64,000 bases of DNA from Nakazawaea peltata. Its lineage: Eukaryota > Ascomycota > Pichiomycetes > Alaninales > Pachysolenaceae. The notes under the pieces were generated by a model, which worked only from the letters and a program-made list of their open reading frames with translations, ran no database searches and was not told where the DNA came from. This document shows positions 1 through 64,000 of this stretch, in pieces. The number at the start of each line of letters is the position of its first letter. Positions within the stretch are counted from its first letter, which is position 1. The position numbers and the translations under genes were made by a program. The stretch spans positions 943,554-1,007,553 of the forward strand of contig BCGQ01000002.1 in NCBI GenBank assembly GCA_001599355.1, given 5' to 3'.

Positions 1-293
1 AAAGTGCCGTGTGGCTGCTTTTTTTCTTCCATGTGGCGCACCGAGGTGCCGTGTGGCGCCATGTGGCACCGTACCCGGGCTAGTGCGGGCTAGTGCACTC
101 CTTGCGCAATAAAATTCCGCTTTTTTTCCCTAAAAGAGTCATTCATGTGGCAAGTGAATGACCAAAATCAGAAAATTTTGCAATTTCCATATTTTATAAA
201 TAGCCACATTATTTTACTTGGCCACATTTCCCCCCAAATCCATATTTCACTATTAAGAAGTTCACATTTATACGAGTTTAACTGTAACTAACG
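1..293 (+). promoter_or_regulatory. SSU1 upstream region with seven TGTGGC/GCCACA boxes
   Basis: TGTGGC occurs on the plus strand at 10-15, 32-37, 52-57, 62-67 and 146-151, and its complement GCCACA at 203-208 and 221-226. TGTGGC is the core of the Met31/Met32 site that controls sulfur genes in Saccharomyces, and the next gene is a sulfite exporter. The first 120 bases also contain imperfect repeats (GTGCCGTGTGGC and GGGCTAGTGC, twice each), so part of the clustering comes from local duplication. Regulation by a Met31/32-type factor is inference. Confidence 0.55.
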
Positions 294-1505
294 ATGAGTC
301 AGTATACATTTAAACAATGCTTCATCGAAAGCTTCCACCCTATATGGTTCGCCAGTGTTATGGGTACCGGTATCAGCTCGGTAATACTATATGAGTTCCC
401 TTACAGAGCCTTTTGGCTTCAAGTGATGGGATTGGTGCTATTTCTGATAGCTTCCTTACTTTTTATTATGCATAATATCTTCCTTGTGTTGAAGTATCTG
501 GTATTTTACAGAAGTATAGAGTTCATAATGGACTCTAAAGTGTCTGTGTTCATGGGTTGTTACCCTATGGCCCTTTGTCCATTAATTAATATGGTGCTGT
601 TCATAGTTAAAGACTATGGCTCACAAGATAATGAGCATTGGTTTTTATTTATGTACATATTATTTTGGTTTGACGTTATAGCATCGTTGGTGTGTGCATG
701 GGGTATCACTTTTGTCTTGTTCTGGAAATCTCAGATCAAGGAGTGGAATAGTCATGGTATTAATGCAACTTTACTTTTGCCAATCGTCACTTTAACTGTG
801 GCTCTGACAACAGGCTTCGTTATATTCGATTATATACCTGAACATATGCGTTTGTTCCATTTAATTTTATGCTTCGTGATATGGTCCAATGCAATTATGT
901 TGCTGTTCCCCTTCGTCAGCATATATTTCGCCAAATTGTACATCACCAAATTGCCTGCCAAGCCAATGATTTTCACCACTTTTATTCCGATTGGTTTCTT
1001 AGGTCAAGGAGCCTTTGGTCTGTTTTTATTCGGTGATTGTGCCAAATCGTACATTGAATCTGCAGATATTGCATCTTCAGATGTTTTGGTGCTCATTGTT
1101 CAGGTTGTATCGGTAATAATGGGTCTTATGATTCTCTCATTTGGATATTTCATGACCTTCATCGCCTGTGCATCGGTAATAAGTGCTGGACAGCAACAAA
1201 AATTCACCAAAAATTGGTGGCTGATGACTTTCCCATTGGGAACAATGGCTGTTGGAAACTCAAAATTAGGCGTTTTATACGATTTAGAAGTTTTCAAAGT
1301 AGTTGGTGGTATTTATGGAATTGCTACCGTATTAATCACCGTCACCTGTCTTCTTGGAAGTCTTTATGAAGAATTCCCTCACCAATGGTACCAACAAAAA
1401 TTTTTCGCAGACAAAGAGACTTCTCGCACCGCTTCTTGTAACGATATTAATGACCTGGCACAAGGAATCGCTTCAGACGATTCCACCCTTGCATCTCAAG
1501 TATAA
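294..1505 (+). CDS. SSU1: Sulfite efflux pump, TDT family (SSU1-like)
   Basis: This 403-residue membrane protein belongs to the tellurite-resistance/dicarboxylate transporter (TDT) family. In yeasts its SSU1 branch exports sulfite across the plasma membrane. The N-terminus carries the family start FHPIWFASVMGTGISS, and about ten hydrophobic segments run to residue ~365. A GFLGQGAFGLFLFG stretch near residue 245 matches the conserved GQG region of Ssu1. A short hydrophilic tail follows. The length is a little under S. cerevisiae Ssu1, with no sign of truncation. The ATG at 294 begins the conserved N-terminus directly. The upstream DNA is packed with TGTGGC boxes, consistent with sulfur control. 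A malate permease of the same fold is the alternative, but the overall match favours Ssu1. Confidence 0.85.
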   Translation: MSQYTFKQCFIESFHPIWFASVMGTGISSVILYEFPYRAFWLQVMGLVLFLIASLLFIMHNIFLVLKYLVFYRSIEFIMDSKVSVFMGCYPMALCPLINMVLFIVKDYGSQDNEHWFLFMYILFWFDVIASLVCAWGITFVLFWKSQIKEWNSHGINATLLLPIVTLTVALTTGFVIFDYIPEHMRLFHLILCFVIWSNAIMLLFPFVSIYFAKLYITKLPAKPMIFTTFIPIGFLGQGAFGLFLFGDCAKSYIESADIASSDVLVLIVQVVSVIMGLMILSFGYFMTFIACASVISAGQQQKFTKNWWLMTFPLGTMAVGNSKLGVLYDLEVFKVVGGIYGIATVLITVTCLLGSLYEEFPHQWYQQKFFADKETSRTASCNDINDLAQGIASDDSTLASQV

Positions 1506-1678
1506 CCCCCCCAATAATAACCCCTAATATTAGATTTAATTATTGTAGTGCATAAATAACCAAAACTCCCAATTAGGAAACCATTTTCTTCTTCAAATTT
1601 TCAGCGATTTTCCAGTAAAAATTCTCATTTTGAAGAGGGTTGATTTGATTGAAGAGGTGCCACAAGCATAGAAAAGGG

Positions 1679-2716: not shown

Positions 2717-2863
2717 TTCCTGTATATAATAATGAAGTGATATAGTCTAGGTATTCGTAGTTGAGGTGGAAGATAAACCTTTGGTGAACGTAGATCTGAC
2801 CCCTGTCTTAAATGGACCCACCTCTCAACACCGAATTCACCCCCTCCTTTTCGGGATCGCTCA

Positions 2864-2875
2864 GAAAATTTTTTC
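2864..2875 (+). promoter_or_regulatory. RRPE-like A/T element upstream of GCD2
   Basis: GAAAATTTTTTC lies 91 bases upstream of the GCD2 start. It resembles the ribosomal RNA processing element common before ribosome-biogenesis and translation genes in yeasts. A TGACTC (Gcn4-half-like) follows near 2895. The assignment rests on resemblance only. Confidence 0.35.
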
Positions 2876-2965
2876 TCACCTTTTCAGCCAAAAATGACTC
2901 GTTAGAAAAATAGCACCTTTGATATCGGGAAGAAGAGAAGAGGGTTTGTTATAGGAGAGTAGAAC

Positions 2966-4507
2966 ATGAGTGAAGTAACTGAAAAGGTGGATAATACGGC
3001 CACGGTGAATCTGGGGAAGAAGAATGAAGAGGATTCCACCAAGAAAAATGCCCCTTCCACTCCTAAAAAAGAGTCCGATACTCCATCGACTCAGCTCTCT
3101 AATAAAGAGTTGAAAGAATTGAAGAAGAAGGAGAAGGCCGCTAAGAGAGCAGCTGCCAAGGCTCAAAGTGAGGCTGGTAATGGAAGTGCAAGCGGTAATA
3201 GTGGTGCCGCCAATGCTTCTGGACAATCACTGTCGTCAGATTCTCATCCTAAAGCCCAGACCAAGTCTAACATTAAGAAACAAGTGACTCAATCCAAGAA
3301 TGTGAAAGAAACTCAAAAGATGCTCCCGTTATTCTCGCATTTAGAGACCCGTGAACAACGTGTACTGACATCTGCCGTCTTGGCCAATATGACACATCCT
3401 CTGATCATCTCGTTGTCCTTGAAATTCTCGTCATATTCGATCGTTGGTTCCACCCCACGTTGTCGTCTGATGTTGAATCTGTTCAAAGAAGTCATTGCTT
3501 CTTACTCTACTCCAGAAGGAACTACATTGACTAGAAACTTGTCTACAAACTTGTCGCATCAAATTGAGTACTTGAAGAACTCCAGACCGTTGAGTGTCAC
3601 TATGGGAAACAGTATTCGTTGGTTGAAACAAGAGATCTCTTTGATCCCAATTGACATGAACGATGAAGATCTGAGATCCCTTTTATGCGATAAGATCGAT
3701 CAATACGTGAGGGAGAAGATTGATTTAAGTCATGATGTCATCATAGATAGTGCTTCCAAACATATTCAAGATGACTACACCATTTTAACTTATGGACACT
3801 CTGAAGTCTTGGAGAAACTCTTTATCGCAAATGCTCAACAAGGAAAGAAGTTCACAGTCATCATTGTCGACTCGAGACCATTGTTTGAAGGTCGTCGTAT
3901 GCTGAAAACCTTGACACTGAACGGAGTCAAATGTCAATACCTGTTGATCAATCTGTTGTCTTCTGTTATTGAAGATGTCAACTATATCATGTTAGGACTG
4001 CATGCGATGTTATCGAATGGACGGTTATATGCTCGTGTTGGTACAGCATTGATTCTGATGAGTGCCAAATCAAGAAACGTACCTGTTTTGGTGTGCTGTG
4101 AGAGTCTTAAATTCAGTGATAAAGTTCAATTAGATAGTGTTACTTTGAACGAGTTGGGAGATGGTGATGATTTAGTTAAGATCGACTCAAAACCAGTACA
4201 AAAGAAGGCTTTCGCATTGGAGCTGTACTTGAAGACTAAGGAAGCTGAGACTGTTGATGAGAAGAAGGGAAGTAAACAACAACAACTGCTGCTGCTGAAA
4301 CAACTGCTGCTGCTGCTTGAACTGCAACAAGCTCAACAATTGGAATCTCAACCTTTGGCTAATTGGAAGACAACGGCTAATTTGAATATCTTAAACATTA
4401 TGTATGACTTGACACCTCCTGAATATATCAAGAAGATTATTACAGAGGTTGGAGCATTACCTCCATCATCTGTGCCTGTTATTTTGAGAGAGTACAAGAA
4501 TGCATAG
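2966..4507 (+). CDS. GCD2: eIF2B delta subunit (guanine nucleotide exchange factor)
   Basis: This 513-residue protein is the delta regulatory subunit of eIF2B, the factor that recycles eIF2-GDP and responds to eIF2-alpha phosphorylation. Residues 1-120 are Lys/Ser/Ala-rich and disordered, as in Gcd2. From ~125 the IF-2B fold shows hallmark blocks: LTSAVLANMTHPLI, TYGHSEVLEKLF, VDSRPLFEGRRML and VPVLVCCESLKFSDKVQLDS, then the C-terminal YIKKIITEVG. CTG codons 345 and 364 sit at the invariant alanines of the family GAHA and GTAQLAL motifs. Nine more CTGs at 4286-4324 make a Gln/Ala linker that would look like an implausible poly-Leu patch under the standard code. It is shorter than S. cerevisiae Gcd2 mainly at the N-terminus. 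Confidence 0.95.
   Translation: MSEVTEKVDNTATVNLGKKNEEDSTKKNAPSTPKKESDTPSTQLSNKELKELKKKEKAAKRAAAKAQSEAGNGSASGNSGAANASGQSLSSDSHPKAQTKSNIKKQVTQSKNVKETQKMLPLFSHLETREQRVLTSAVLANMTHPLIISLSLKFSSYSIVGSTPRCRLMLNLFKEVIASYSTPEGTTLTRNLSTNLSHQIEYLKNSRPLSVTMGNSIRWLKQEISLIPIDMNDEDLRSLLCDKIDQYVREKIDLSHDVIIDSASKHIQDDYTILTYGHSEVLEKLFIANAQQGKKFTVIIVDSRPLFEGRRMLKTLTLNGVKCQYLLINLLSSVIEDVNYIMLGLHAMLSNGRLYARVGTALILMSAKSRNVPVLVCCESLKFSDKVQLDSVTLNELGDGDDLVKIDSKPVQKKAFALELYLKTKEAETVDEKKGSKQQQLLLLKQLLLLLELQQAQQLESQPLANWKTTANLNILNIMYDLTPPEYIKKIITEVGALPPSSVPVILREYKNA
4286..4324 (+). repeat. In-frame CTG codon tract inside GCD2
   Basis: Four CTG codons, AAA CAA, four more CTGs, CTT GAA and a final CTG lie in the GCD2 reading frame (codons 441-453). 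Read as alanine, this is an Ala/Gln-rich linker inside the regulatory fold. Read as leucine, it would be a greasy patch in a polar loop. It looks like an expanded trinucleotide repeat. Confidence 0.9.
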
Positions 4508-8271: not shown

Positions 8272-8955
8272 TCATTCTGGAATTGGCGGGATGAAGATTG
8301 GTTGTTCGTTTTTTTTGGCGTTACGAAGACTGAGGTAACAATTCCAAGCAATACTGACCAAGTTAACAGTCAACAAACGGTGTTGGACTGGAACAAGGGC
8401 GAAATTGAAGAATTGAAACACCGGCCAAACTGCCCAATTCAGTACTAAAGTGGTTTTGTAGTTTAATTCCAAATTCAGCTTCAATTGTGAGGTGGATTGC
8501 CCTTCCATTAATGACATGCAAGTAAAGTAGAGTGGGATTCCTACAGGAGCCCATAATAATTGATCAGCAGCGACTCTGGCGACAGTGTCACGGACGTGGT
8601 TGACCTTGGCGATCTTGGATGGAGCTCCAGGGAATCTCACCTTTGAAAGAAATTTGTACCATTTGTCTCCGATGAACAGGAAGACACAACCTCCGTAGAT
8701 CATGGCCCTCAGTGTTCTTTGCCAATCGTAGCGTTGTAAATCTTTTGGTTTTGGGGTATCGCTATCTGGGAAAGGTTTGATATCGGTGAAAAAGACCTGA
8801 GCAATCAGATCTCCAGACCCAAATAAGAACTAGTAGAGTTAGTAGATTGGATTTCAGCGGGAATCACCGGTGGTACTTACTGCAGTGGTGAGGGCATTGG
8901 TCAAGACAGGCCTTGTCTTGATCGAATTGCTGTACAGTTGAAAAATTCGAGACAT
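8272..8955 (-). CDS. SYM1: Mpv17/PMP22-family mitochondrial inner membrane protein, spliced
   Basis: This is a 210-residue protein encoded by two exons: 8955-8881 (25 codons) and 8829-8272. Exon 1 gives MSRIFQ...IKTRPVLTNALTTA and exon 2 continues FLFGSGD.IAQVFF, matching the Sym1 pattern of a basic N-terminus and GD..AQ. Later blocks (GDKWYKFL, ADQLLWAPVGIPLYFTCMSLMEG, NWAVWPVFQFFNFALVPVQHRLL) are diagnostic of Sym1, an ethanol-metabolism and heat-stress protein of the inner membrane. Four hydrophobic segments are visible. The CTG codon at 8712-8710 falls in RT.RAMIYG, where Saccharomyces Sym1 has alanine. S. cerevisiae Sym1 is 197 residues. Confidence 0.93.
8830..8880 (-). other. SYM1 intron (51 nt)
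   Basis: On the minus strand the donor is GTAAGT after GCA, the branch site TACTAAC is at 8844-8838, and the acceptor AG is at 8831-8830. Only six bases separate the branch site and the AG. Joining the exons restores the conserved frame across the GD..AQ motif. Confidence 0.93.
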
Positions 8956-10592: not shown

Positions 10593-11513
10593 ATGCACAG
10601 AACATACTCTATGAGAAATGCCAGAGCTCCAACTGCTTCGCAGTTGCAGTCTCCACCACCTCCTCCTTCCACTACCAAGGGAAAGTTCTTTGGTAAGGGA
10701 TCTTTGACCAACAACTTGAGAAGATCTACTGCTGGATCTTTCGGACCAGAGATGGCCAGAAAGTTGTCTCAATTGGTTAAGATTGAGAAGAATGTTATGA
10801 GAGCTGTTGAATTGACTGCTTCCGAGAGAAAGGTTGCTGCTAAGCAATTATCTTTGTGGGGTGAGGAGAACGACGACGATGTCAGTGATGTTACTGACAA
10901 GTTGGGTGTCTTAATCTACGAGATTGGTGAATTGGAAGACCAATTCATTGACCGTTACGACCAATACAGAATCACTTTGAAGGGTATCAGAGATATCGAG
11001 GGTTCTGTTCAACCTTCTAGAGAAAGAAAGCAAAAGATCACAGACCAAATTGCTTACTTGAAGTACAAGGACCCACAATCTCCAAAGATTGTTGTCTTGG
11101 AACAAGAATTGGTTAGAGCTGAGGCTGAATCTTTGGTTGCTGAGCTGCAATTGTCCAACATTACCAGAGAGAAGTTAAAGGCTGCTTTCAACTACCACTT
11201 TGACTCTTTGAGAGAGCACTCTGAGAAGTTGGCTTTGATCGCTGGTTACGGTAAGGCCTTGTTGGAGTTGTTGGATGACTCTCCAGTTACTCCAGGTGAA
11301 ACTAGACCTGCTTACGATGGTTACGAAGCTTCTAAGCAAATCATCATCGATGCCGAGAATGCTTTGGCTTCCTGGACTTTCGACACCGCTCAAGTCAAGC
11401 CAACTTTGTCTATCAGAAGAGCTGACGAGGAGTACGATGAGGATGAGGATTTGGCTGAGGAAACCGAAAACTTGGCTGTCACCGAACAAGAGTGGGCTGA
11501 AGACAAGCAATAG
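10593..11513 (+). CDS. PIL1: Eisosome core BAR protein (Pil1/Lsp1)
   Basis: This 306-residue protein builds the eisosome lattice beneath plasma-membrane furrows. The basic N-terminus MHRTYSMRNARAPTASQLQ is followed by the BAR-type helical domain (~45-275) with GSFGPEMARKLSQLVKIEKN, LGVLIYEIGELEDQFIDRYD and a long, nearly invariant stretch including ALIAGYGKALLELLDDSPVT and YDGYEASKQIIIDAE. The tail is acidic. Pil1 and Lsp1 cannot be separated from sequence alone. Codon bias is strong (TTG, AGA, GGT), as expected for an abundant protein. Its one CTG, codon 185, sits in VAE.QLSNIT, where Pil1 and Lsp1 have alanine. A TATA box lies upstream. Confidence 0.96.
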   Translation: MHRTYSMRNARAPTASQLQSPPPPPSTTKGKFFGKGSLTNNLRRSTAGSFGPEMARKLSQLVKIEKNVMRAVELTASERKVAAKQLSLWGEENDDDVSDVTDKLGVLIYEIGELEDQFIDRYDQYRITLKGIRDIEGSVQPSRERKQKITDQIAYLKYKDPQSPKIVVLEQELVRAEAESLVAELQLSNITREKLKAAFNYHFDSLREHSEKLALIAGYGKALLELLDDSPVTPGETRPAYDGYEASKQIIIDAENALASWTFDTAQVKPTLSIRRADEEYDEDEDLAEETENLAVTEQEWAEDKQ

Positions 11514-12688: not shown

Positions 12689-12710
12689 TACAAGACAAAC
12701 AAACCACAAT

Positions 12711-16048: not shown

Positions 16049-16993
16049 ATGGACTCATTCACCTTAACTAACGGGCTCAAGGTCCCTGCCGTCGCCTATG
16101 GAATCGGCTCAAAATGGTCAAGAAACAAGAAACTGACCCCCAACGAAACTAACTCCGAACTAGCCTCCAATATCGAGTTGGCCTTGAAGAAAGGCTTCAC
16201 TCATTTGGACATGGCCGAGACCTACAACACATACCTGGAAGTCGAGGTGGCCTTCAACAAGTTGCGGAGCTCCGGAGACTTCAAGAGAGACCAATTGTTC
16301 CTCACCGATAAGTACTGGACCGGCTTAGGCTCGGGCAATATGCCAAAGAGTTCAGGTCCAAAAGAAGCCTTGGAGAAGTCCTTGAAGGTGTTGGGATTGG
16401 ACTACGTAGACAGCTACCTTATCCATTCACCTTTCTTGGAGAAGGAGATTCATGGGATTTCCACGAAAGAAGCTTGGAAAGAGATCGAGGAGCTCTACAA
16501 GACCGGCAAAGCCAAGTCGATTGGAGTCTCAAACTTCGACGTTGAGTCTCTTGAGGAGTTGATGGGTTACCTGGAAATCAAGCCTATGGTCAACCAAATT
16601 GAGTACAATGTGTACTTGCCCAACCAGAGTACTGGGATTGTGGAATTCTGCCAAAAGAACGGCATCTTGGTCTCTGCCTACTCACCTTTGGCTCCATTGT
16701 ACAAGAAATCGAATGATCCTGAGGAAAACTCCAAGCCAGGCCCAATTGACGGGCTCGTCGAGGAGTTGGGAGCCAAGTACTCGAAGACTGCGACTCAGGT
16801 TTTACTTAGATGGGTTTACCAGACCGGAGTCTTGCCGGTGACTACATCTCAAAACGAGCAAAGGTTAGATCAGATTTTGGATATTTTCAGTTTCGAATTA
16901 TCGGAGCTGGAGGTTGGCCAGATCTCCCAATTGGGCTCAAAGCACTTCTATAGACAGTACTGGATCGACCCATTCCTGAAGTACGATCCTTAG
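16049..16993 (+). CDS. NADPH-dependent aldo-keto reductase
   Basis: This 314-residue aldo-keto reductase is of the Ypr1/Gcy1-like or related yeast class and reduces aldehydes and ketones with NAD(P)H. The catalytic tetrad is visible: Asp and Tyr in HLDMAETY, Lys in LTDKYW and His in LIHSPF. NQIEYNVYLP and the strand ILVSAYSPLAPLY follow, and cofactor-binding residues lie near LPVTTSQNEQRLDQ. The barrel is complete. CTG codon 175 lies in Y.EIKPMVNQIEY, where AEIKP is usual. The exact substrate cannot be assigned. Its stop codon overlaps that of the convergent ASR1 gene by four bases. Confidence 0.92.
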   Translation: MDSFTLTNGLKVPAVAYGIGSKWSRNKKLTPNETNSELASNIELALKKGFTHLDMAETYNTYLEVEVAFNKLRSSGDFKRDQLFLTDKYWTGLGSGNMPKSSGPKEALEKSLKVLGLDYVDSYLIHSPFLEKEIHGISTKEAWKEIEELYKTGKAKSIGVSNFDVESLEELMGYLEIKPMVNQIEYNVYLPNQSTGIVEFCQKNGILVSAYSPLAPLYKKSNDPEENSKPGPIDGLVEELGAKYSKTATQVLLRWVYQTGVLPVTTSQNEQRLDQILDIFSFELSELEVGQISQLGSKHFYRQYWIDPFLKYDP

Positions 16994-24306: not shown

Positions 24307-25353
24307 ATGACCAAAGAAACCGTTTTACTCTCTGGAGCCTCCGGCTACCTCGCCTTACACATTGTCGACTGCTTATTGAAGCAGGACTATAAAGTGATCG
24401 GAACAGTGAGATCTACTGCCAAAGGTGAAGAAATCATTGCCAACTTCAAGGAAATCTATCCTGACCCTGACTTCTCATATGAAATAGTAGCCAATATCGA
24501 TGATGGAGGAGCCTTTGACGAAGTTTTCAAGAAACACCCGGAGATTGATTACGTTATTCATAACGCATCTCCGTTTGCTTTCGGTATTGGTACTGACATG
24601 CAGGCAACTTATATCAACCCAGCTATCAATGGTACTCTTAACATGTTGAATGGTGCCAAACAATTGGGCTCCAAAGTGAAGGCGGTTGTCATTACTTCTT
24701 CGTATACTTGTGTCAGAGCATTAGAAGTCTCTGAACATGAACATGTCTACACCGAAAAAGATTGGAACCCTATGAGCTTAGATGAGGCCAATAATGGACC
24801 TGTCCATGCCTACTTTGTATCTAAGAAATATGCCGAGAAGGCTGCTTGGAAGTTCTCGGAAGAAGAGAAACCTCAATTCACTATCAGCACTATTCTCCTG
24901 CCCCAAATTTTGGGTCCCCAAATGTTCACAAACTTATGGGCAAAGGACAAATTACCCGTCAGTCCTAACATGCTTATGAAAGTATTCAACACGAAGCCAG
25001 GGGATTCATTCGAGGAATTGTCTAGAATGAAAAGTTTATGTATCGATGTGAGAGACTGTGCCCTGCTCCATGTTCTGCTGATAAAGAAACCCGAATTAGC
25101 AGGTCAAAGATTACTCCCTGCTATTAAGGCTTACACCGGTGAAGAATTATTACAAGTGCTGAACCAAATCCCTGAGTTGAAAGGTGTAGTTGCTCCAATT
25201 GACGAGGCCCAAGTGGAAGCTTCTCTTGCTGATGCTGACAAGTTCGATTGCAGTGAGACTTTAAAACGTTGGGGTAAAGAGTTGATTCCTTTCGAGAAAA
25301 TGGCTGCAGATGCTTTTAAACAGATTTATGAATTCAATCAGGCCAAGGCTTAG
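24307..25353 (+). CDS. GRE2-like NADPH-dependent carbonyl reductase, array copy 1
   Basis: This 348-residue extended short-chain dehydrogenase is of the Gre2/methylglyoxal reductase type. The Rossmann motif is GASGYLA at residues 8-14, the catalytic serine is in ITSSYTCV, and the Tyr/Lys pair is in AYFVSKKYAEKAAW. It is the most diverged of three tandem copies: the ITSS region has YTCV where the others have MA/MS-type, and the segment before the last third is longer (SFEELSRMKSLCIDVRD). The start is the ATG at 24307. CTG occurs at HVL.IKKPELAGQ, where Gre2 has alanine (HLVAF). Substrates of such enzymes include diacetyl, methylglyoxal and other ketones; the one used here is unknown. Confidence 0.93.
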   Translation: MTKETVLLSGASGYLALHIVDCLLKQDYKVIGTVRSTAKGEEIIANFKEIYPDPDFSYEIVANIDDGGAFDEVFKKHPEIDYVIHNASPFAFGIGTDMQATYINPAINGTLNMLNGAKQLGSKVKAVVITSSYTCVRALEVSEHEHVYTEKDWNPMSLDEANNGPVHAYFVSKKYAEKAAWKFSEEEKPQFTISTILLPQILGPQMFTNLWAKDKLPVSPNMLMKVFNTKPGDSFEELSRMKSLCIDVRDCALLHVLLIKKPELAGQRLLPAIKAYTGEELLQVLNQIPELKGVVAPIDEAQVEASLADADKFDCSETLKRWGKELIPFEKMAADAFKQIYEFNQAKA

Positions 25354-38371: not shown

Positions 38372-39448
38372 ATGACCGACTACACAGCGGAACAAGAGAA
38401 ACATGTCAAATCCATACTAGAAATCGATCGTAATGACTACTACAAGCTTCTTCAAGTGGAAAAAGGTGCCTCCGAGACAGAGATCAAAAAATCGTACCGC
38501 AAATTGCTGATCAAATTACACCCCGACAAGAACAAGCACCCAAAATCTTCGGAACTGTTCAAAAAAGTGCTGAAACTGTTCGAAGTATTGGGAGACTCCG
38601 ATAAGAAACGTATATATGATCAAACTGGATATGACCCAGACTCTCGTGGAGGGTTTGGAGGAGGAGCGTCCTCGGGAGCATCATCCGGTTTCTACAACGG
38701 AGCTGGAGGTGGCGGTAACCCATTCATGAGACGTGGCGGCGGCGGTATGTACCCTGGAGGAGGAGCTCAACTGTTTGATGCTGAAGATTTACTTAATTTC
38801 ATGTTTGGAGGTGGAGCTCCAGGTGGAACTCTGTTCAATACTGGAAATGGATTCACTTTCAGTTTCGGAGGACCTTCTGGATTCGGAGGAGCTTCCCCAT
38901 TCGCATCTGCATTCCAACAACAATATGCTCGTCAACAACTGCACCAACAACAGCAAAGACAGAGACAGAGACAACAAGGACAAGCCACCAACTCAGATCA
39001 ACTCAAAGATACTCTCAGGCAATTATTACCGATCTTGCTCTTCCTTCTCATCCCACTTCTAACAACATTTTTCGGTGGAGAAGAATCAGAGACATTCTCA
39101 GCTACAGGATCCAAATTGCCCAAGTTCTCTTTCGAACTGCAACCCTCATTACCTATCCAGAGATTCACCTCCAAATATAAAATCCCATACTACATTAATG
39201 AGAAAACTTTCACCACCAATGGAGGTTACCAAGATCTGGAGAGTGCCAAATTGAAGACCTTGGATAAGCGTGTCGAACACAAGTACATCAACGACTTGAA
39301 ATACAAATGCCATAAAGAGAATCTCCAGAAACAGGACGCCATAGAAGACTCTCATTTCTTCTTCATCGTCAACGAGAAGAAACTAGCAGAGCTGCATGCC
39401 ATGGAGACCCCTAGCTGTGATCGTTTATCCAGTTTAGGGTTACTCTGA
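38372..39448 (+). CDS. HLJ1: ER-membrane J-domain co-chaperone (Hlj1/DNAJB12-like)
   Basis: This 358-residue protein has a J domain (~23-90) with the HPD at residues 50-52, a Gly-rich linker (~98-200) with LFDAEDLLNFMFGG, a single membrane segment (~215-235) and a C-terminal region typical of DNAJB12/14 (FELQPSLPIQRFTSKYKIPYYIN). Such proteins recruit Hsp70 to the cytosolic face of the ER for degradation of membrane proteins. It is longer than S. cerevisiae Hlj1 (224), which lacks much of the tail. Codons 46, 62 and 69, all CTG, occupy the alanines of KLA, EAF and RAF in the J-domain consensus. Confidence 0.9.
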   Translation: MTDYTAEQEKHVKSILEIDRNDYYKLLQVEKGASETEIKKSYRKLLIKLHPDKNKHPKSSELFKKVLKLFEVLGDSDKKRIYDQTGYDPDSRGGFGGGASSGASSGFYNGAGGGGNPFMRRGGGGMYPGGGAQLFDAEDLLNFMFGGGAPGGTLFNTGNGFTFSFGGPSGFGGASPFASAFQQQYARQQLHQQQQRQRQRQQGQATNSDQLKDTLRQLLPILLFLLIPLLTTFFGGEESETFSATGSKLPKFSFELQPSLPIQRFTSKYKIPYYINEKTFTTNGGYQDLESAKLKTLDKRVEHKYINDLKYKCHKENLQKQDAIEDSHFFFIVNEKKLAELHAMETPSCDRLSSLGLL

Positions 39449-39492: not shown

Positions 39493-42400
39493 CTACCATT
39501 GGGTTGCGTCCCATTTCAGCATCTCCTTCGACTGTTGATTCAAGTCTTTACCCAGCTTCGTCCGCATGTAAAAGATTGGACAGTCATTGTTCGAACATAA
39601 CACTTCTTGATGCAATGACCCTTGACAACGTTGACATTCTGTCCATAACTTGGCGAATTTCAGTTCCAACAGATTCAATTTCAGTAAATCTTCACTATAA
39701 AGTTCCAGACCTAAACCTTTCTTGATACAATTATCACACAACAGTTGATCATCTTTTGGAAGTGGACTTTTACAGTTCTTACAAAGTTCGGTCTTCTTTG
39801 CAAATCTCATAAGCCCACCTGTCTTTGGCAGTGACATAGTAACAGTTCTGGTATGAGCTCCAGTTAAAAGTTCTTTCAGTCTTTTTGGTCCTAAGATTGG
39901 CTCGAAAATTCTCATCAATGGTTTACTTAATTGGTTATCCAAGTAATAATTCGAATCAATAGGAAGAGAATGCTCCAACAGGTACAATGGGTCTTCTGAT
40001 TTCTCGTAGTTCTTATCACTAGCTGTCTTAATGATCACATAAGCTACACGATCACCGATCGAAGGCAGAGAACCAGCATCTCTTTTCTTCATTCTCTCAG
40101 CTAATTCCACATGCAGTTGTTTACCAGCGTAGTCGTATCTCGATAACAGCTTAGTGATGACCAATTGAGACATATCGACTCTATTCTGTAATAAATCGGC
40201 AATAGTTTTCTTGACAAACTCTTCAGCTCCAGAAACATCACGTCCATACAAAATCAATTCCAATACTTTAGTGATCACATTCTGAACCAACCGACAGTTA
40301 TCTCTTCTGACTGTCTCAATACCTTTAGTATCCATTTTATCAGCCTTCTTAGTATTAGTCCAGAACAATCCAGCGTATCTCTTCTTGTTAATCAACAAAT
40401 ACGGGAAATAAACCTTTTCGAATTCCAATTTGATCGGATTAATAAACTTGGTCGAAACATACAGAGCAGCTTCTTCTCCTAATTCCATACATTTTGCCAA
40501 ATCTGAATACCCAAACTTCACCATGACAGAATCTGTATCACCATAGATAACTTGAGCATCATAGTCATATCCATTCAGAACAGTATACTTCTCTTGGACT
40601 GTTTGTTTAGTCTTTTCGATCATGATTCTACCAAAGGCTGTAACAGATGACGAGATAGCCAAACACGGCAACTTTCCAATCGTAGCACCGGTGAAACCAT
40701 ACACAGAGTTAGCAGAGATCTTCAAAGCCAATTGTCTACCATTCAACACCTGTTTCTTGAAAGGGTCAGTCTCGTTTTTCAAATCTTTCTTAGCATTCTT
40801 TCTTGCTTGCAACAATTCTTGTAAAATAGTAGGCAAAATACCTTTCTTTAAATGCGATTTAACAAAATAGTCATTGTTAGGAGTCAAAGTGTAGTCTTTA
40901 CCCTCTTGAAGACCTAACCTTTCGATAGTCAGTTTGTTCAACAAGGTGGTATAACACAAGTTATGAGCCATCATAATAGATGGATACAAAGAAGCGAAAT
41001 CCAAAGTTGCAATTGGAACATCATAATATCCTCTAACAGGTTCAATAACTGTGGCACCCTCATACTCTTCGTTGGTTCCTTCGCTCTTCAAATTCGGAAT
41101 AACAGTATCCAAATCAAGACATTTACGGAACAATTGCGAAATAACTTTAATCTGTTGCCCTCTAGTGATCAAGAACGAGAAAGGTACACCTGTGACTCTC
41201 GCCATCTCAGTATAATTAACAAGACACATAAGCTTATCAAGTAATCTCATAGGCAAATAAGCATCCTTCAAACAATACACAGCCAATCTTCTACGAGTAT
41301 CAGAGTCTCCATTTTGTAAATCGGTAATGATAGAATGATGAACGTCTTCCTTTTGCTCCCCTAAGAAATGAGCAGACACAGAATTCAACGTATATGAACG
41401 TAATTTATAATCTCTTTGAATAATTTGTAATAAATCCAATTGCATACGTCCCTCAATATTGATATTCTTATTCTCACGAGTACCATACGCTCTTGAACTG
41501 AAGACCGAGTCCTTAATCTCTTGTTTGACGTTGGTAAGTTTTCCGAAATATGGGAATTTCTCCAATTTCAACAGAGCTGCTCTATTGATAAGGTACGGTA
41601 AATCGAAATTAGCCGTGTTATAACCAATGATGACATCCGCATCCACTTTGACGACGAACTCCTTCCATTTCATCAACATTTCTTCCTCAGTCTCATAAGA
41701 ATATATATCGGATCCTACAATTGGAGAACAACTCTTAACAGTGAACACATTCCGTACAAACGGTTGAGACTCTCCCGAACGAGTGACTACATTAGCAATT
41801 TGAATGACAGGATCAACCTCAGCTTCAGGGAAAATACCTTTACGACCAGCACATTCAATATCAAATGATAAAATACGCAATGGAGCAATCTTGGAATACT
41901 CACCTTCAGTATCATGAGCGATCAAATCACGATAATCGATAGAAATCTCATGTTGACATGTAGAGATACGATCGAGTGGATTCACAACCTTATATTTACC
42001 CAGTGGCAGAGTAATCCAGGACATACCGGTGATTTTACAGTCGATCATGACCCTCAAAAGATACTGAATATTGTCAAAAGTCATCACTCCATCTACTGGG
42101 AATAACCCATTATGATTCACCTCACCACGTTCGAACAGAGAACGAAGTTTCCCGATATGTTTGGAGTTATCGACAACCACCTTCATGAACGGGAGCTTGG
42201 TGTTATCATTATAACCCCAAATGCTCTCTTTGAAGACGATCTCAATCTTATGTAATCCTTGGTAATTCTGCTGGAGTTTTCTGGTGAAATCCGGTAAATC
42301 TTTATCACTGAATCCCTTAGGAACCGGTACGTAAAAGTAATGGTAGAATCCAGTCACGTAACAGAAGACAGTATTACCTTCTTCGGTAGCACCAAAGAAA

Positions 42401-42846
42401 CGGATCACCGAATTATTACCCATGATCCCTTCGTCAGCATCCAACTGTTGGAAAGTGATATCACTAATAGCTGGATCGAAATCTGGATCAATAGGCGGTC
42501 TTGCCCACAGATCAACCAGAGTAGTATGACCTTTGATCAAGTCACCCTTAGAAGCAGCCTCCATCAGCTTCAACTCCTTCTCAAATGCTGACAGATCAGC
42601 ATCTGGATCATCGACACCACTCAACTTCGATTTATAAGAGTCTAAAGATGTGTAATGCTTCCGCGGCAAATTGGCGTCTCCATTGATACCTTGATTGGCG
42701 ACGGGTAAGGAATGGGACGACAACTTGATTCGTTTAGTATCTAATTCATCACCCTCAACATCCTCACTCATATGCTTCAACATCAGTCCCGTCTCAGCTA
42801 CTGGTGCCATCTTACTGTATCTCTTCGTCTTAAGCGCCCACCTCAT
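39493..42846 (-). CDS. POL3: DNA polymerase delta catalytic subunit
   Basis: This 1117-residue B-family replicative polymerase has an exonuclease motif ([12 protein letters not shown], ~325), polymerase motif A ([15 protein letters not shown], ~615), motif B ([13 protein letters not shown]), motif C ([12 protein letters not shown], ~767) and two C-terminal cysteine clusters ([19 protein letters not shown] and CQRC...CSNNDC), the second of which holds the Fe-S cluster. CTG codons at 40116-40114 and 40068-40066 (minus strand) fall on the alanines of [11 protein letters not shown] and GSAPS. The start is the first ATG; the N-terminus [16 protein letters not shown] is not conserved, so internal ATGs at MAPV or MSEDVEG are alternatives. 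An ACGCGT box lies 36 bases upstream. Confidence 0.97.
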
Positions 42847-48398: not shown

Positions 48399-48475
48399 AC
48401 TTTGGTGCACGACTATTACCTATATAACCGTTAATTTGACTTTTGATATTCAAGATGAATGTAGTGTAGATTCTG

Positions 48476-50324: not shown

Positions 50325-50339
50325 TAAAGTCAAAGGTGA

Positions 50340-51785
50340 ATGTTTCTGAGAGTGTGGAACCGTGTATATAGCAGCCGAGCAGTCATGAGTATCAGGGAAC
50401 AGTTATCACAACCACCAATCAACCGTGAAATGAGAGAGCTTGACCGCTCTTTCTTCACTAAGAAATTCAACATTTGGTCATTGTTTTTGAAGGATGCCAG
50501 TAAGATGAGATTCTTCCTTACAGAGTGTAAAGATGACATTTTACAGATCCAGGGTGTTGATTTCATTGTTAAATCGAATCAAGACTTTGGTGAACCTTTG
50601 AACAAGCAAAATAAATTGTTATTGCTCACCGACAAACTCGAGCATAGAGAAGATCTCAAGACAGTTTTGAGTAGTAAACTGTTGAAGTATATTGATGAGT
50701 TTGAAGGTGTTCTCAAACCATACGAATTGGTGGTTGGCTATGATTTCTGGAAAGCTGAGCAAATCCTTAGAGCTGTCTTACCAGACAATCTCGATGAGGA
50801 TATTCCGTCCGGATTTACTCGTACTGGACACATTGCTCATGTCAATTTGAAGCTGGAATATAAGCCATATGACAAGTTAATTGGTCAGGTAATTATGGAT
50901 AAAAACAAATCGGTACGAACCGTCGTCGATAAGGTAGACTCGATTGCAACCGAATTCAGAACTTTCCCAATGAAAGTAATTGCCGGAGAAGAAGATTATA
51001 TCGTCACACAAGCCGAAAGTGACTGCAAATTCCAATTTGATTTCTCCAAGGTCTATTGGAATTCCAGATTACATACCGAACATAAAAGATTAGTAGACTC
51101 ATTTTCTCCAGAAGATCTGATATGCGATGTAATGGCAGGTGTCGGACCATTTGCGATTCCAGCTGCCAAAAACGAACATATCGTTTTCGCCAATGATTTA
51201 AACCCGGATTCTTATAAATGGTTGAATTCCAACATTAAATTAAATAAGGTAACACCTTGTATAGAAACATATAATATGGATGGACGTGAGTTCATCAAAC
51301 AATCTCTGAGATTACTTTGGGATTACAGTGAGAACCATAAAGTTATTCATATTAACCAAAGAAAGGTCAAGAAACAGAAATTGGATCCAAGTCTGGAAAG
51401 ACAAAGACCAGCTCCAATTGAGAAACCAATTCCTAAATTTTTCTCCCATTATATCATGAACTTACCTGATTCTGCTCTTACTTTCCTCGATGCATACATA
51501 GGATTATACTCACAACTGGGATTGAGTAAAGAACAAGTCTTAAGTATCCCTAATTTCAAACTTCCAATTGTTAATGTACATCATTTCGAGAAATTTGAGC
51601 ACACAGAGTCTCCTTCTGACGAAGAATTGCATCATAGAGTCCATGAGAAGGTTAAAAAGTTGATTAACTTCGATATTCCATTCGAATCATTGAGTTTCCA
51701 TCTCGTTAGAAAGGTTTCTCCAACTAAACCTATGTTCTGTGTATCGTTCCAGCTTCCAGAGGAAGTAGCATTTGCTAGTGTATAA
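50340..51785 (+). CDS. TRM5: tRNA (guanine37-N1)-methyltransferase
   Basis: This 481-residue enzyme methylates G37 of tRNA to prevent frameshifting. Trm5 landmarks include SGFTRTGHIAHVNLK, the SAM-binding motif ICDVMAGVGPFAIPAAK (~260), FANDLNPDSYKWLN, and FSHYIMNLPDSALTFLDA (the NLP active-site motif). Two in-frame ATGs, 50340 and 50385, bracket a basic leader (MFLRVWNRVYSSRAV) that looks mitochondrial. Saccharomyces Trm5 is known to be dual-localised from two starts, and the same arrangement appears preserved here. Confidence 0.96.
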   Translation: MFLRVWNRVYSSRAVMSIREQLSQPPINREMRELDRSFFTKKFNIWSLFLKDASKMRFFLTECKDDILQIQGVDFIVKSNQDFGEPLNKQNKLLLLTDKLEHREDLKTVLSSKLLKYIDEFEGVLKPYELVVGYDFWKAEQILRAVLPDNLDEDIPSGFTRTGHIAHVNLKLEYKPYDKLIGQVIMDKNKSVRTVVDKVDSIATEFRTFPMKVIAGEEDYIVTQAESDCKFQFDFSKVYWNSRLHTEHKRLVDSFSPEDLICDVMAGVGPFAIPAAKNEHIVFANDLNPDSYKWLNSNIKLNKVTPCIETYNMDGREFIKQSLRLLWDYSENHKVIHINQRKVKKQKLDPSLERQRPAPIEKPIPKFFSHYIMNLPDSALTFLDAYIGLYSQLGLSKEQVLSIPNFKLPIVNVHHFEKFEHTESPSDEELHHRVHEKVKKLINFDIPFESLSFHLVRKVSPTKPMFCVSFQLPEEVAFASV

Positions 51786-52163: not shown

Positions 52164-53939
52164 CTATAAAAATGGAACACTAGCTCCATCACCTCTAAGA
52201 TCACTTCCTCCAGCCCAGACAAGAGTATCTGATTCCATCTTCTTGATAATTTGACCTCTGCCGAAGCTTCTTCTCAGATCAGATTTGACAGCCTCAGTTT
52301 TATGACCCAATTTAGTCAAGGCTTCAACAACTTCGCTACTAATTCCTTCCTCAATTAATACGATAGTAGTTGGAGTAGAGGCAGGACCATCACTACCGAA
52401 CCCTTTGTCCTCCATTTCTTGAGCTGGGTCTGGATTCAAAGTGATTCTAGGAGCATCTAAGGCCTCTTGAGGGTTGAACCCAAACAATGTCATATTCAAA
52501 AATACTTGAACATGAGCTTGAGGTTGATTAAATCCTCCCATAATACCATAACTGGCATATAAATCTTCCTTACCATCTGCAGTTGGAGTAGTGATCATTC
52601 CCGGAATGATAGTATGGTAACATCTCTTTCCACCTTCGAGACAGTTTTTAGAAGCTGGGTTCATCGAGAAATTACCTCCTCTGTTATGTAAAGCAAATCC
52701 TTTGCCTGGGACTAAGATACCAGATCCGAATCCCTCATAAACAGAGTTAATAAAAGAACAAGCATCTCCATTCGAATCGGAGACTGTGAAATAGACAGTA
52801 TCGGACTTGAACATTGGGTTAGGGATACCATACTCTGTGTCAGAGTTATCAATGACCGAGTCCTTCTTATAATAATGAATTCTTTCTTTGAAGTACTCAG
52901 GGTCCAACAATTTGGCAACAGTCTCTTCTTGAGTCCATTTGGAGCTCTTTTTGAAGAACTCTGGGTCATTGACATACTCATCACTATCTCTGAAACTAAT
53001 CTTAAGACATTCAATGACTGCATGTAAGTATTCCACAGAGTTATGTTTGATAGTTTTCAAGTCAATCTCTCCAGCAGCATCCAATTCTTTCAACAACCCT
53101 AACGTAAGTAAAGCTACTAAACCTTGTCCATTAGGAGGGATTTCCCATAATTTTTGATCACCCAACTGGTATGAAATTGGTTCGACAAAAGTAGTAGTGT
53201 GATTCTTGAGGTCTTCTAAAGATAACAAACCACCTCTTCTTTGAACTTCATTCACAATGGCTTCGGCAATCTCACCTTCATAGAATCCCAGCTTCCCCTT
53301 CTTGGCGATGGTCTCTAAAGTCTTTGCAACGAACTTGTTAGCTACAAATTGTCCCAGTTTAGGACCAGTTAAACCTGGATTTGGAAGGATATTCAGTAAA
53401 TCCTCCTCCTTGTTGTCTCTACTCTTGAACTTCTTCTCCAGATTTCTCCAGTTGAGAGCTGCAATTTGAGAGATTGGAGCTCCCTTGGCCAACTCGATAG
53501 CAGGTTGAAGAATCTCCTCAAAAGTGACTTTTCCAGACCCCCATTTCTCGACAGAATCAACCCATCCGGCAATGGCTCCACTCACATTGATACTGAACAC
53601 AGACCCATCCTTCAAACGGTAGTTAGGTAAGATCTCTTCAGGGTAATTCTCCTTGATATAATCGATACTCAATTTGGAGGCCGATCTACCAGTTCCATTC
53701 ATACCATAAACCTTTTTCTCGTCGTTTTTATACAACAAACAGAAACAGTCACCACCAATTCCTGTAGAACCAGGCTCCATGACACACAATGCGGCACTTA
53801 CAGCCACCAGGGCATCCACACAATTACCACCTTTGGCTAAGATTTTGAGTCCAGCAGCATTGGCCAACGGCTGGGTCGATGATACGATACCTTTTGGAGA
53901 GTAAACAACCGATCTTCTTGAGTTAAACAGAGTTTCCAT
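52164..53939 (-). CDS. Gamma-glutamyltransferase-like Ntn hydrolase, bacterial (HpxW/YwrD) type
   Basis: This 591-residue self-processing N-terminal-nucleophile hydrolase starts at the ATG at 53939 (METLFNSRRSVVYSPKG). It has GSTGIGGDCFCLLY, GWVDSVEKWG, and the autocleavage site before Thr381 in KSDTVYFTVSDSNGDACSF, then FGSGILVPGKGFALHNRGGNFS and GGFNQPQAHVQVFLN. These features place it with bacterial-type gamma-glutamyltransferases and oxamate amidohydrolases rather than vacuolar Ecm38. There is no signal peptide or membrane anchor, so it is cytosolic. The substrate is uncertain. A past transfer from bacteria into fungi is plausible, although codon use matches neighbouring genes. Confidence 0.88.
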   Translation of the reverse strand: METLFNSRRSVVYSPKGIVSSTQPLANAAGLKILAKGGNCVDALVAVSAALCVMEPGSTGIGGDCFCLLYKNDEKKVYGMNGTGRSASKLSIDYIKENYPEEILPNYRLKDGSVFSINVSGAIAGWVDSVEKWGSGKVTFEEILQPAIELAKGAPISQIAALNWRNLEKKFKSRDNKEEDLLNILPNPGLTGPKLGQFVANKFVAKTLETIAKKGKLGFYEGEIAEAIVNEVQRRGGLLSLEDLKNHTTTFVEPISYQLGDQKLWEIPPNGQGLVALLTLGLLKELDAAGEIDLKTIKHNSVEYLHAVIECLKISFRDSDEYVNDPEFFKKSSKWTQEETVAKLLDPEYFKERIHYYKKDSVIDNSDTEYGIPNPMFKSDTVYFTVSDSNGDACSFINSVYEGFGSGILVPGKGFALHNRGGNFSMNPASKNCLEGGKRCYHTIIPGMITTPTADGKEDLYASYGIMGGFNQPQAHVQVFLNMTLFGFNPQEALDAPRITLNPDPAQEMEDKGFGSDGPASTPTTIVLIEEGISSEVVEALTKLGHKTEAVKSDLRRSFGRGQIIKKMESDTLVWAGGSDLRGDGASVPFL

Positions 53940-57004: not shown

Positions 57005-59074
57005 TCACCAGACATCCTCTTGGAATCTGTTACTGGTCTTCAAAGCACGGATTAATTCAGCTGCAGTGTCCTGAGAAACTCCTCTTTGTGACATGAAAAT
57101 CTGCACTAAAGCAGCATTGACATCCTTAGCCATCTTACCGGCATCACCACAAATGTAGAAGAATCCACCAGCAGCCAAGACATCATTGATCTCTTTGGCA
57201 TACTCGATCATCTTATGCTGTACATAAACCTTTTGCAGTTGGTCTCTGGAGAAGGCAGTCACCATCTGGAATTTGTTACCCAAAACCTTCAGGTATTGGA
57301 CCCATTCATCCTTGTAGAGGAAGTCTTCTTTTTCGGATCTGGAACCAAAGAACAAAAGAGATTGGCCAATGTTGGCCTCGCCATTCTCGACTTGCAGAAC
57401 TCTCTCCCTAATGAAACCTCTGAATGGAGCAACACCGGTACCTGGACCAACCATGATGACAGGTGTAGCTGGGTTAGTTGGTAATTTGAAGGTGGATCTT
57501 CTGACATGTACTGGCAATTTGTAGTTGCTGAACAAACCTCTTGGACCCAGTAAGTCATAAGAAACGTTAGGCTTGAAGGAGTCGTCCTTGTTTTGCTTCA
57601 ATTGGATGTTCCACAACAAATTTGTAGCTACACCAGTTACAGCATGATCAGATCCCAGAGGAACCTCATTCTCAACAACGGCAGTGATATGAATAGTCTT
57701 CTTCTCAGATAAAGACGAAGAAGAAATCGAATAGTAACGTGGTTGTAAATGTTGAATGGACTCGATCAAGAAAGTGAATGGAACTGACCATTTTTCACCA
57801 CCAGAAATGCTCAACAAAGCTTCCGACATATTCAAATATTTAGCAGTGACCAGGTCGTGGAATTTCTCACTAGAATCAGCTAACTCTTTAGTCAGTTCCT
57901 TGGCCTCTGGAGATGGAGCAAATTGTTGAATACTTTGTAAGAATTGTCTTGAGACAGGACCAGAAATCTCCAAGAAATGTCTAACTACAGCCTCGTAAGT
58001 AGTTGGCAATGGGAAAGGAATATGAACAGTAGGGTCTAACTTTTCAAGAGAGAATACCTCATCCTTAATTTCATACAAGGAGAACAGCTTCAAGAAAGCC
58101 TCAACGTTCTCGTTTGAGTTGGAAGGCCAGATCAGTAAATGATCACCGGTGGAATATTTGATATTAGTGGCAGAAATGTCGAACTCAGCGTGGATACAAT
58201 GTCTAGAGTCCGATTGGAATAATTCCTTTGACTTAATAATTGGAGCAATGTAAGGGAAGGAGTGATCAAATGGACCACGCTCTAATCTTTCTTGGACAGC
58301 AGATGATTGAGCAGAAGCGTTGACATAAGCAGCTACAGGTTCACCCAAGGCAACAGACTTGTCATCAACACCCAAGTCAGACTTCTCGATCAATTTCAAC
58401 AGTGGTTGATACTCAACCTCATGCTCCTCCAACTTCAAATGGTCCTTCAAAGAGTCAAAAGTAGCCTCCTTCCAAGTCAAATAGTCTTCATCCATAGTGG
58501 CAGCACCATCATCTCCCTCACCGTATGGAGCGACAAGCTCGGCACCCAACTCTTGGAATCTCTTGTTCATGTTCTTACCTGAAGCATTGTAGAACTCATA
58601 AGTAGAGTTACCCAACCCGAAACAAGTATAGTTAATACCCTCCAAAGATTCACATTCGGTGTTAATGTACTCGAAGAAGTCAACAGCATTATCAGTAGCC
58701 TCACCTTCGCCATAAGTGGCCATGAAGAACACAGCAAGCTTGAAGTCTGGTACCTCTTCTGGGACACGGGCAAAAGTATCGAAATCAAACTCTTGTAAAT
58801 CGACACACATAGTGGCAATTTGGTAACGAGATTGTAACTCCTTGGCGAATTTGTGAGCATAATCCTCGGCGGTACCAGTCTGAGATCCATAGAAAACAGC
58901 AGCCTTTTTACCAGTCTTCTGTAAGACCTCGACAATGTCTCTGGAATCGATATTGACGCCGAGAGAGTCGCCTGATCCGCCTAACAGCGCCTTAATTTGG
59001 TCTTTAGCAAAGTATGCCACCAAGGCAGCAACGATAGCAATCAAAATACTGATATCCAAAGTATCTACAGCCAT
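57005..59074 (-). CDS. NCP1: NADPH-cytochrome P450 reductase
   Basis: This 689-residue ER flavoprotein passes electrons from NADPH to the P450s Erg11 and Erg5 and to squalene epoxidase in ergosterol synthesis. It has an N-terminal membrane anchor (~8-25), the FMN domain (YGSQTGTAEDYA, FFMATYGEGEATDNA, CFGLGNSTYEFYN), the FAD site RYYSISSSS, the NADPH site MVGPGTGVAPFRGFIRE, and the C-terminal EDVW. The start is the ATG at 59074. A CTG codon (57292-57290) sits in QY.KVLG, where S. cerevisiae has EYAKKL. Two CTCGTATA elements lie about 380-400 bases upstream, matching sterol control. Confidence 0.97.
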   Translation of the reverse strand: MAVDTLDISILIAIVAALVAYFAKDQIKALLGGSGDSLGVNIDSRDIVEVLQKTGKKAAVFYGSQTGTAEDYAHKFAKELQSRYQIATMCVDLQEFDFDTFARVPEEVPDFKLAVFFMATYGEGEATDNAVDFFEYINTECESLEGINYTCFGLGNSTYEFYNASGKNMNKRFQELGAELVAPYGEGDDGAATMDEDYLTWKEATFDSLKDHLKLEEHEVEYQPLLKLIEKSDLGVDDKSVALGEPVAAYVNASAQSSAVQERLERGPFDHSFPYIAPIIKSKELFQSDSRHCIHAEFDISATNIKYSTGDHLLIWPSNSNENVEAFLKLFSLYEIKDEVFSLEKLDPTVHIPFPLPTTYEAVVRHFLEISGPVSRQFLQSIQQFAPSPEAKELTKELADSSEKFHDLVTAKYLNMSEALLSISGGEKWSVPFTFLIESIQHLQPRYYSISSSSLSEKKTIHITAVVENEVPLGSDHAVTGVATNLLWNIQLKQNKDDSFKPNVSYDLLGPRGLFSNYKLPVHVRRSTFKLPTNPATPVIMVGPGTGVAPFRGFIRERVLQVENGEANIGQSLLFFGSRSEKEDFLYKDEWVQYLKVLGNKFQMVTAFSRDQLQKVYVQHKMIEYAKEINDVLAAGGFFYICGDAGKMAKDVNAALVQIFMSQRGVSQDTAAELIRALKTSNRFQEDVW

Positions 59075-60725: not shown

Positions 60726-61075
60726 CCTATCGTCTACTTCCCTTCAATTTCGTCTCCATATAAAACCCCAACCTTAATAGGAACGCATAAAAACTGTTTG
60801 CACGCGCACGCCCACACACCGCGCACTCGACCCGATCCATAGCATTTTACAACTCGTCCGAGTCGCATCTCTCATAATATGCTCACCACCATCTCGCTGC
60901 TCCGTTATGAAGCCTCGCTGCTCCCGCGCTCAGCCCTGCCGCGGACTCTTTGCTCGGAGACTCCCGTTTCTTATCGCCAGAAATTAAGGTTTACGATAAG
61001 CACATTTCACTTATATATGTTTTAACTATTGTCTAATTTGACGGCTGACCTGACAAAATCAACACTCAACGGATT
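60726..61075. promoter_or_regulatory. NSE3/MCH1 divergent promoter
   Basis: These 350 bases have no gene. They contain an alternating CACGCGCACGCCCACAC run (~60800-60825), a TTTACGAT (complement of ATCGTAAA) at 60990-60997 and a TATATATG near 61012. Confidence 0.5.
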
Positions 61076-63028: not shown

Positions 63029-63064
63029 TAGAGAACATAATATTTATTGAATGGATGTGTAGAT

Positions 63065-64000
63065 CTAGAGAAGAGTAGTGAGATAAAATGGATATCCGTC
63101 GTTTTTGATATGGTAGAAAGCAATGATCAGACTGTATAATACAAATATAGCAGCATTGACGATGATCACGCTTACAAATTTGGTCTTTGGATCATCAAAT
63201 TTGCTAACTTTTGCAAGCAAAAACCACATGGCGACAAATAATCCAAAGTAAACCAGAGAAACCAAATGAGTCTCGGCACCTAATTGCTGTTGATGACCGG
63301 CAATGAAGTAATGCATTTGACCATTGGACTCTCTTGAATATGGAGTCTTTCTGATTTGGTTGAACATGATCCCAGCACAGAAGGAGAAAATAGTGAATAA
63401 AGCTAAGAAAGCATAGATAAATGTGGACTTGAATACCTTGTCAAATTTGGTGTAACATTTGTAAATAGTCACCACCAGCAAAGCCAAGAATGCGAATCTT
63501 TGGAAAATCTTCGAGTAATCGGTCGGTTCTCTCAATACAAACATATTAGGTGTAGCTGTCTTGATCTGAGAGAGGACAAATTGAGCTAAACTGGCATGAT
63601 GTTCTCCATTCATTAAAGTGTATTCCTCATATTTGGCGACATTCAGCTTGGATTTGGTCTTAGTTGGCGCATACAACAACACCTTAGGTACCGATTGTAA
63701 AGATAAGTCTTGGAAATACTGCTTATTGTCCCCAAAATCGGCAATTGCATACAAAATGTTAGGTGGTTTCTGGTCATCTTCGTCGGTAGAAGCCGGAATA
63801 AGAGTGCCACCGACATTCTCCGCATAAGAACTGGCAAATGTGGTGAAATGAGGGTAGAATTCAGTACATAAAGAGCATGCAATTCTCGATGAACTGGCCG
63901 TCAAGTACACAAGAACGTAATAATCTTCACGGTTCAGAAGGAACTGTTCATAATTTCTGTCGGTGATCTTCAAGATATTGTTGGAATTCACTTGTTTGGC
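63065..64000 (-). CDS. OST3: Oligosaccharyltransferase Ost3/Ost6 subunit, 5' end beyond the window
   Basis: The C-terminal 311 codons of this minus-strand gene lie in the window; the frame runs off the right edge, and no ATG is seen, so the signal peptide is missing. The visible part has the luminal thioredoxin-like fold with the redox CxxC motif (IACSLCTEFYPHF), then four membrane helices (FAFLALLVVTIYKCY; FIYAFLALFTIFSFCAGIMFNQI; LVSLVYFGLFVAMWFLLA; VIIVNAAIFVLYSLII). That architecture is the Ost3/Ost6 (TUSC3/MAGT1) subunit. Ost3 versus Ost6 cannot be settled here. Confidence 0.88.
   Translation of the reverse strand, partial: AKQVNSNNILKITDRNYEQFLLNREDYYVLVYLTASSSRIACSLCTEFYPHFTTFASSYAENVGGTLIPASTDEDDQKPPNILYAIADFGDNKQYFQDLSLQSVPKVLLYAPTKTKSKLNVAKYEEYTLMNGEHHASLAQFVLSQIKTATPNMFVLREPTDYSKIFQRFAFLALLVVTIYKCYTKFDKVFKSTFIYAFLALFTIFSFCAGIMFNQIRKTPYSRESNGQMHYFIAGHQQQLGAETHLVSLVYFGLFVAMWFLLAKVSKFDDPKTKFVSVIIVNAAIFVLYSLIIAFYHIKNDGYPFYLTTLL

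Follow-up and report, generated by a model that had tools for sequence, protein, structure and literature searches.

Yeasts with a reassigned CUG codon comprise an alanine clade and the serine clades CUG-Ser1 (the Candida clade) and CUG-Ser2 (Ascoidea, Saccharomycopsis). In the available text of Krassowski 2018 (PMC5951914), the alanine clade includes Nakazawaea, Peterozyma, and Pachysolen, as assigned by BLAST and LC-MS/MS of 18 key species; CUG is described there as relatively rare in the code-changed clades, reassigned codons as avoiding conserved sites, and four of the five CUG-Ser2 species studied as keeping a tRNA-Leu(CAG) beside the tRNA-Ser(CAG). Nakazawaea peltata, which the NCBI taxonomy places in Alaninales, Pachysolenaceae, is the source of the 64,000-nucleotide stretch of DNA analyzed here (hereafter, the window). 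Its nuclear genome almost certainly uses the CUG-Ala code of the order Alaninales (NCBI table 26) through one alanine-type tRNA(CAG) gene, and it resembles the known examples of this code in that CTG stands for alanine, a tRNA(CAG) of the alanine type is dedicated to it, and no leucine tRNA(CAG) could be found. With CUG-Ser1 it shares the reassigned codon and, as far as the available text describes that clade, the G37 next to the CAG anticodon, whereas the tRNA there is serine-type and the one here has a short variable arm along with G3:U70 and A73. The same codon is also reassigned in CUG-Ser2, although most of the species studied there keep the tRNA-Leu(CAG), which was not found here in the places scanned. 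In contrast to the rarity of CUG in the clades of Krassowski 2018, CTG is common in the window (20.4 per 1000 codons); in agreement with that study, 36 of 92 CTG codons lie in conserved context vs 149 of 268 GCN codons (p=0.008). The reassignment is real, already known, and ordinary for the clade. A preliminary description of the window had likewise proposed a CUG-Ala yeast, regarded the reassignment as not new, and favored a relative of Nakazawaea or Peterozyma; the code matches table 26, and the suggested relationship fits, with a window GC of ~41%.

The 31 open frames of at least 150 amino acids in the window hold 15,680 codons (stops counted), and the 320 CTG codons among them make up 320 of the 1106 codons of the alanine set (CTG+GCN). 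The genes on which the analysis draws are collected in table 1. The two CTG runs of the GCD2 linker occupy window positions 4286-4315 with AAA CAA between them, so that the linker is Gln/Ala-rich under table 26 and Gln/Leu-rich under the standard code. PIL1 exhibits a strong codon bias, with AAG for every lysine and TTG for 90% of the leucines, and CTG accounts for 1 of its 29 CTG+GCN codons. Judging by PIL1, highly expressed genes may avoid CTG; across the 31 ORFs of the window, the share of CTG was not significantly correlated with either of two measures of codon bias. Between 24307 and 29439 lie three neighboring frames (at 24307, 26419, and 28396) that look like duplicates of one GRE2-like reductase and contain 5, 5, and 1 CTG codons, respectively; the homologue search covered the first of them.

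Table 1. Coordinates of the genes and reading frames discussed (window positions unless a contig is named)
Feature	Coordinates	Strand	CTG codons
GCD2 (eIF2B delta)	2966..4507	+	23
GCD2 linker	residues 441-444 and 447-450		two runs of four
SYM1-like reading frame (stop to stop; putative family name, from the preliminary description)	8272..8829	-	at 8710-8712
PIL1	10593..11513	+	1, at 11145-11147
Aldo/keto reductase	16049..16993	+	5
GRE2-like reductase (epimerase fold)	24307..25353	+	5
QRI1 (UDP-GlcNAc pyrophosphorylase)	36250..37698	+	9
HLJ1-like J-protein (DnaJ + DUF1977)	38372..39448	+	at J-domain residues 46, 62, 69
POL3 (DNA polymerase delta)	39493..42846	-	25
TRM5-type tRNA methyltransferase	50340..51785	+	7
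Gamma-glutamyltranspeptidase (GGT)	52164..53939	-	7
NCP1 (NADPH-cytochrome P450 reductase)	57005..59074	-	11
tRNA-Ala genes	contig C9: 84113, 124263, 130176, 153657, 298071, 298631		

Eight window proteins, with every CTG masked as X, were searched against PDB sequences, and the homologue residues were tallied per codon and scored with BLOSUM62. The tally comprises 15 of the 23 PDB alignments listed, the eight others being further chains of the same proteins, mutant forms, a chimera, and polymerase zeta; it omits the second stretch of the GGT match and, for one GCD2 match, the first stretch, and one POL3 alignment is partial. At least one homologue was aligned at 74 of the 92 CTG codons, yielding 143 pairs, in which we directly observed a preference for alanine: A was met 41 times, L and K 13 times each, E 11, S 10, and other residues less often, with BLOSUM62 sums of 82 for A, 29 for S, and -170 for L. 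In the comparison of all 20 residues, alanine came first; of 2000 column bootstraps, it won 1945 with all 74 columns and 1905 with the 48 better-aligned ones, and serine won 48 and 82, respectively. Within better-conserved surroundings (87 pairs), the counts were A 30, E 7, S 7, L 6, and K 6. The same procedure returned the standard residue for 54 of the 55 codons with at least eight pairs in the better-aligned set (six codons fell below this minimum), the sole exception being CTG, which returned alanine; thus, the masked test reproduces the code as known and picks out CTG. When the conservation filter was lifted, 56 of 58 codons were standard (three had too few pairs), and the exceptions were CTG and CGG, the latter with tied residues in eight pairs. 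Alanine was met less often at CTG than at GCN codons (29% vs 44%, the latter 206 of 468 pairs; p=0.0013).

The preliminary description had rested on individual sites, and all 11 codons that it cited are indeed CTG on the coding strand, just as the leucines that it cited in GSRLG and in a 15-residue stretch all use TTG. Its claim that these CTG codons fall on residues kept as alanine held for nine of the ten aligned ones, which meet A in at least one homologue, and failed for the HLJ1 codon at 38555 (residue 62), where K stands in four of four alignments among the matches listed. The homologues read A,G,A and A,S,A at GCD2 residues 345 (3998-4000) and 364 (4055-4057), P,A and G,A at POL3 residues 911 (40114-40116) and 927 (40066-40068), A,A at QRI1 residue 12 (36283-36285), and A,A,H at NCP1 residue 595 (57290-57292). 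PIL1 residue 185, whose alignment, like those of HLJ1, stands outside the eight-protein tally, corresponds to A in a solved PIL1 chain, the best one of four matches. HLJ1 residues 46 (38507) and 69 (38576) correspond to A in four of four among the matches listed, the four HLJ1 alignments representing two distinct proteins, as three chains are of the same DnaJ protein. The SYM1 site gives QRTARAM in the table-26 reading. Beyond the cited sites, A is found in both homologues at QRI1 residue 138 and in all three at NCP1 residue 314. Because CTG meets alanine less often than GCN does, the cited sites are clear cases and not the average.

A further comparison was provided by Pfam, with which 20 window proteins were scanned with CTG read as Ala, Ser, or Leu; one protein had no family, and one family was chosen per domain where families overlapped, leaving 28 families. 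The summed scores were 4327.6 bits for Ala, 4286.1 for Ser, and 4213.4 for Leu, that is, a lead of Ala by 42 bits over Ser and 114 over Leu. Ala exceeded Leu in 24 of the 28 families (Leu ahead in three, one tie) and Ser in 19 (Ser ahead in seven, two ties).

ARAGORN found no tRNA in the 64-kb window, and the search for the decoding tRNA covered the whole genome (11,631,020 bases in 11 contigs). A pattern consisting of a CAG anticodon loop followed by a normal T-loop occurred in 66 places, no more than the 70 of a reversed control, so that the pattern by itself is no evidence and the ARAGORN scan is what counts. Applied to all 66 places, ARAGORN recovered a single CAG tRNA, at C4:81426-81498, which it names tRNA Leu by the anticodon alone. 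The preliminary description had proposed looking for just such an alanine-like tRNA, and the gene that we observed is class I, with a 5-base variable loop, A35, G37, G3:U70, and A73. G3:U70 and A73 are marks of alanine tRNAs, and among the 32 tRNA species examined they occur together in tRNA(CAG), Ala(AGC), and Ala(UGC) only; the U6.U67 of tRNA(CAG) is common to the alanine tRNAs and is also present in Arg(CCG) and Val(UAC). The Rfam tRNA model scored the locus at 50.9 bits in a permissive scan (gathering threshold, 29), whereas the gathering scan gave no match, which we attribute to its fast filters. The cloverleaf lies within 0.2 kcal/mol of the energy minimum, and single-strand folding showed no excess over shuffles (z 0.15). 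A DNA search, of a kind that misses diverged copies, alanine tRNAs included, found no second near-identical copy. Six tRNA-Ala genes were found (AGC 4, UGC 2), all on the 588,574-base contig C9, and the CAG gene is on C4. ARAGORN also named a Gly tRNA beside one pattern place (L051); at another (L127), it reported a Val(GAC) tRNA containing an intron of 21 bases, which lies at the edge of the stretch scanned and was taken as spurious.

A search for leucine-type D-arms (at most two mismatches) gave 11 places, of which eight are leucine tRNAs: five CAA, two UAA, and one AAG. One of the CAA genes has an intron and is labeled Val(CAC) by ARAGORN, its body being leucine-type. No leucine tRNA with a CAG or UAG anticodon was present among the 66 scanned places and these eight leucine tRNAs. 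A longer-gap CAG search for introns gave 143 matches, and a CAG tRNA that has both an intron and an unusual D-arm would lie beyond the places scanned with ARAGORN; the set from the whole-genome tRNA scan, in which 63 of 608 candidates were scored, is incomplete. For valine, 36 places yielded five Val(AAC) tRNAs and one Val(UAC), and the genome gave no sign of a Val(CAC) tRNA, all nine CAC-loop places of this search being rejected as tRNAs by ARAGORN; hence, the lone Val(UAC) may read GTG. This sole Val(UAC) found (L070 136-209; C7:714835-714908) bears U73 and a U6.U67 mismatch, and Val(AAC) bears A73.

Taken together with the column preference, these genes suggest a simple route of decoding. 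A class I tRNA with a CAG anticodon, encoded by one gene, would be charged by alanyl-tRNA synthetase through G3:U70 and A73, and would read CUG and insert alanine. Leucine would be read by the tRNAs with CAA, UAA, and AAG, the last presumably with inosine-34. Inosine-34 does not pair with G; with these three anticodons, therefore, no leucine tRNA found can read CUG. Charging by alanyl-tRNA synthetase, expression of tRNA(CAG), and absence of ambiguity are points that we infer from the sequences.

Three other readings of CTG were weighed against alanine. The standard code, in which CTG is leucine and the alanine columns arose by chance, could appeal to the tie of leucine with lysine for the second raw count at CTG, yet the BLOSUM62 sums place leucine far below alanine, and the other leucine codons meet L in 39% (CTC), 56% (CTT), 62% (TTA), and 64% (TTG) of their pairs, against 9% for CTG (CTA has one pair). 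With the deficit of Leu in Pfam, and with no tRNA-Leu able to read CUG found in the places scanned, this reading is vanishingly improbable. Serine, as in the CUG-Ser clades, is a closer competitor, being second in all three alignment rankings and ahead in the Pfam families noted above, and the lead of alanine over it is modest in both Pfam and column scoring; it is the tRNA that settles between the two. No serine-type CAG tRNA was present among the 66 scanned places, and tRNA(CAG) combines G3:U70 and the 5-base variable loop with A73, against G73 in the four serine isoacceptors examined here. Serine at CTG (10 of 143 pairs) is also no higher than at GCN (42 of 468), and a serine meaning of CTG is thus highly improbable. 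On the column scores, the Pfam bits, and the features of tRNA(CAG), both the leucine and the serine readings were rejected. The preliminary description had held that columns mostly of leucine or serine, or a normal tRNA-Leu(CAG), would speak against alanine; the CTG columns are mostly neither, and a normal tRNA-Leu(CAG) was not found in the places scanned.

A subtler alternative keeps CTG mainly as alanine and allows a minority of leucine, with leucyl-tRNA synthetase charging part of tRNA(CAG) through A35, G37, and A73. Yeast LeuRS prefers these three nucleotides, and the tRNA(CAG) gene carries G37. Leucine is held by 10 of 74 CTG columns vs 8 of 237 GCN columns (p=0.003), or 13 of 143 vs 9 of 468 pairs (p=0.0003), and POL3 residue 280 and QRI1 residue 78 are L in both homologues used. 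A precedent is found in the available text of PMC5951914, where 3% leucine charging of the C. albicans tRNA-Ser(CAG) is put down to G37. The leucine excess is nevertheless explicable without ambiguity, since a single base separates CTG from each of four leucine codons (TTG, CTA, CTC, CTT), which makes a Leu-to-Ala swap easy, whereas no leucine codon lies one step from GCN. Leucine tRNAs, moreover, have a long variable arm that tRNA(CAG) lacks, and such partial leucine charging appears unlikely.

The parentage of tRNA(CAG) is less straightforward than its identity marks. A 2016 paper on Pachysolen reportedly viewed the corresponding tRNA as a tRNA-Ala with a mutated anticodon, which is also the published view in the available text of PMC5951914. 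Over its whole length, the N. peltata gene matches Val(UAC) in 51 of 71 positions, Ala(AGC) in 50 of 70, and Gln(UUG) in 45 of 70. Its D-arm is closer to Gln(UUG) (15/16) and Val(UAC) (15/17) than to Ala (11/16), whereas the variable loop (5/5), T-arm (14/17), and 3' acceptor end (6/8) match best, or equally best, with Ala(AGC). FastTree joins the gene to Val(UAC) with a support of 0.957, IQ-TREE gave no supported placement, and nearest-neighbor resampling (n=3000) favored Val(UAC) 1535 times and Ala(AGC) 1263 times; five placements were compared by the AU test, and none was rejected. The valine anticodon CAC is one base from CAG. These patterns leave some room, though we hold it rather doubtful, for tRNA(CAG) being a mosaic, or a recruited Val/Gln-type tRNA that gained alanine acceptor marks, instead of a simple anticodon-mutated tRNA-Ala.

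Provided that the window represents the genome well, translating the latter by the standard code or as CUG-Ser would give the wrong residue at ~2% of codons, and such mistranslation matters for gene models, for the expression of its enzymes in other hosts, and for proteomics. The parentage of tRNA(CAG) and the leucine excess at CTG are the parts that merit a specialist's time. For the evolution of the code, N. peltata offers a usable case in which a frequent codon has been reassigned and a single tRNA gene is the only reader of CUG that was found.
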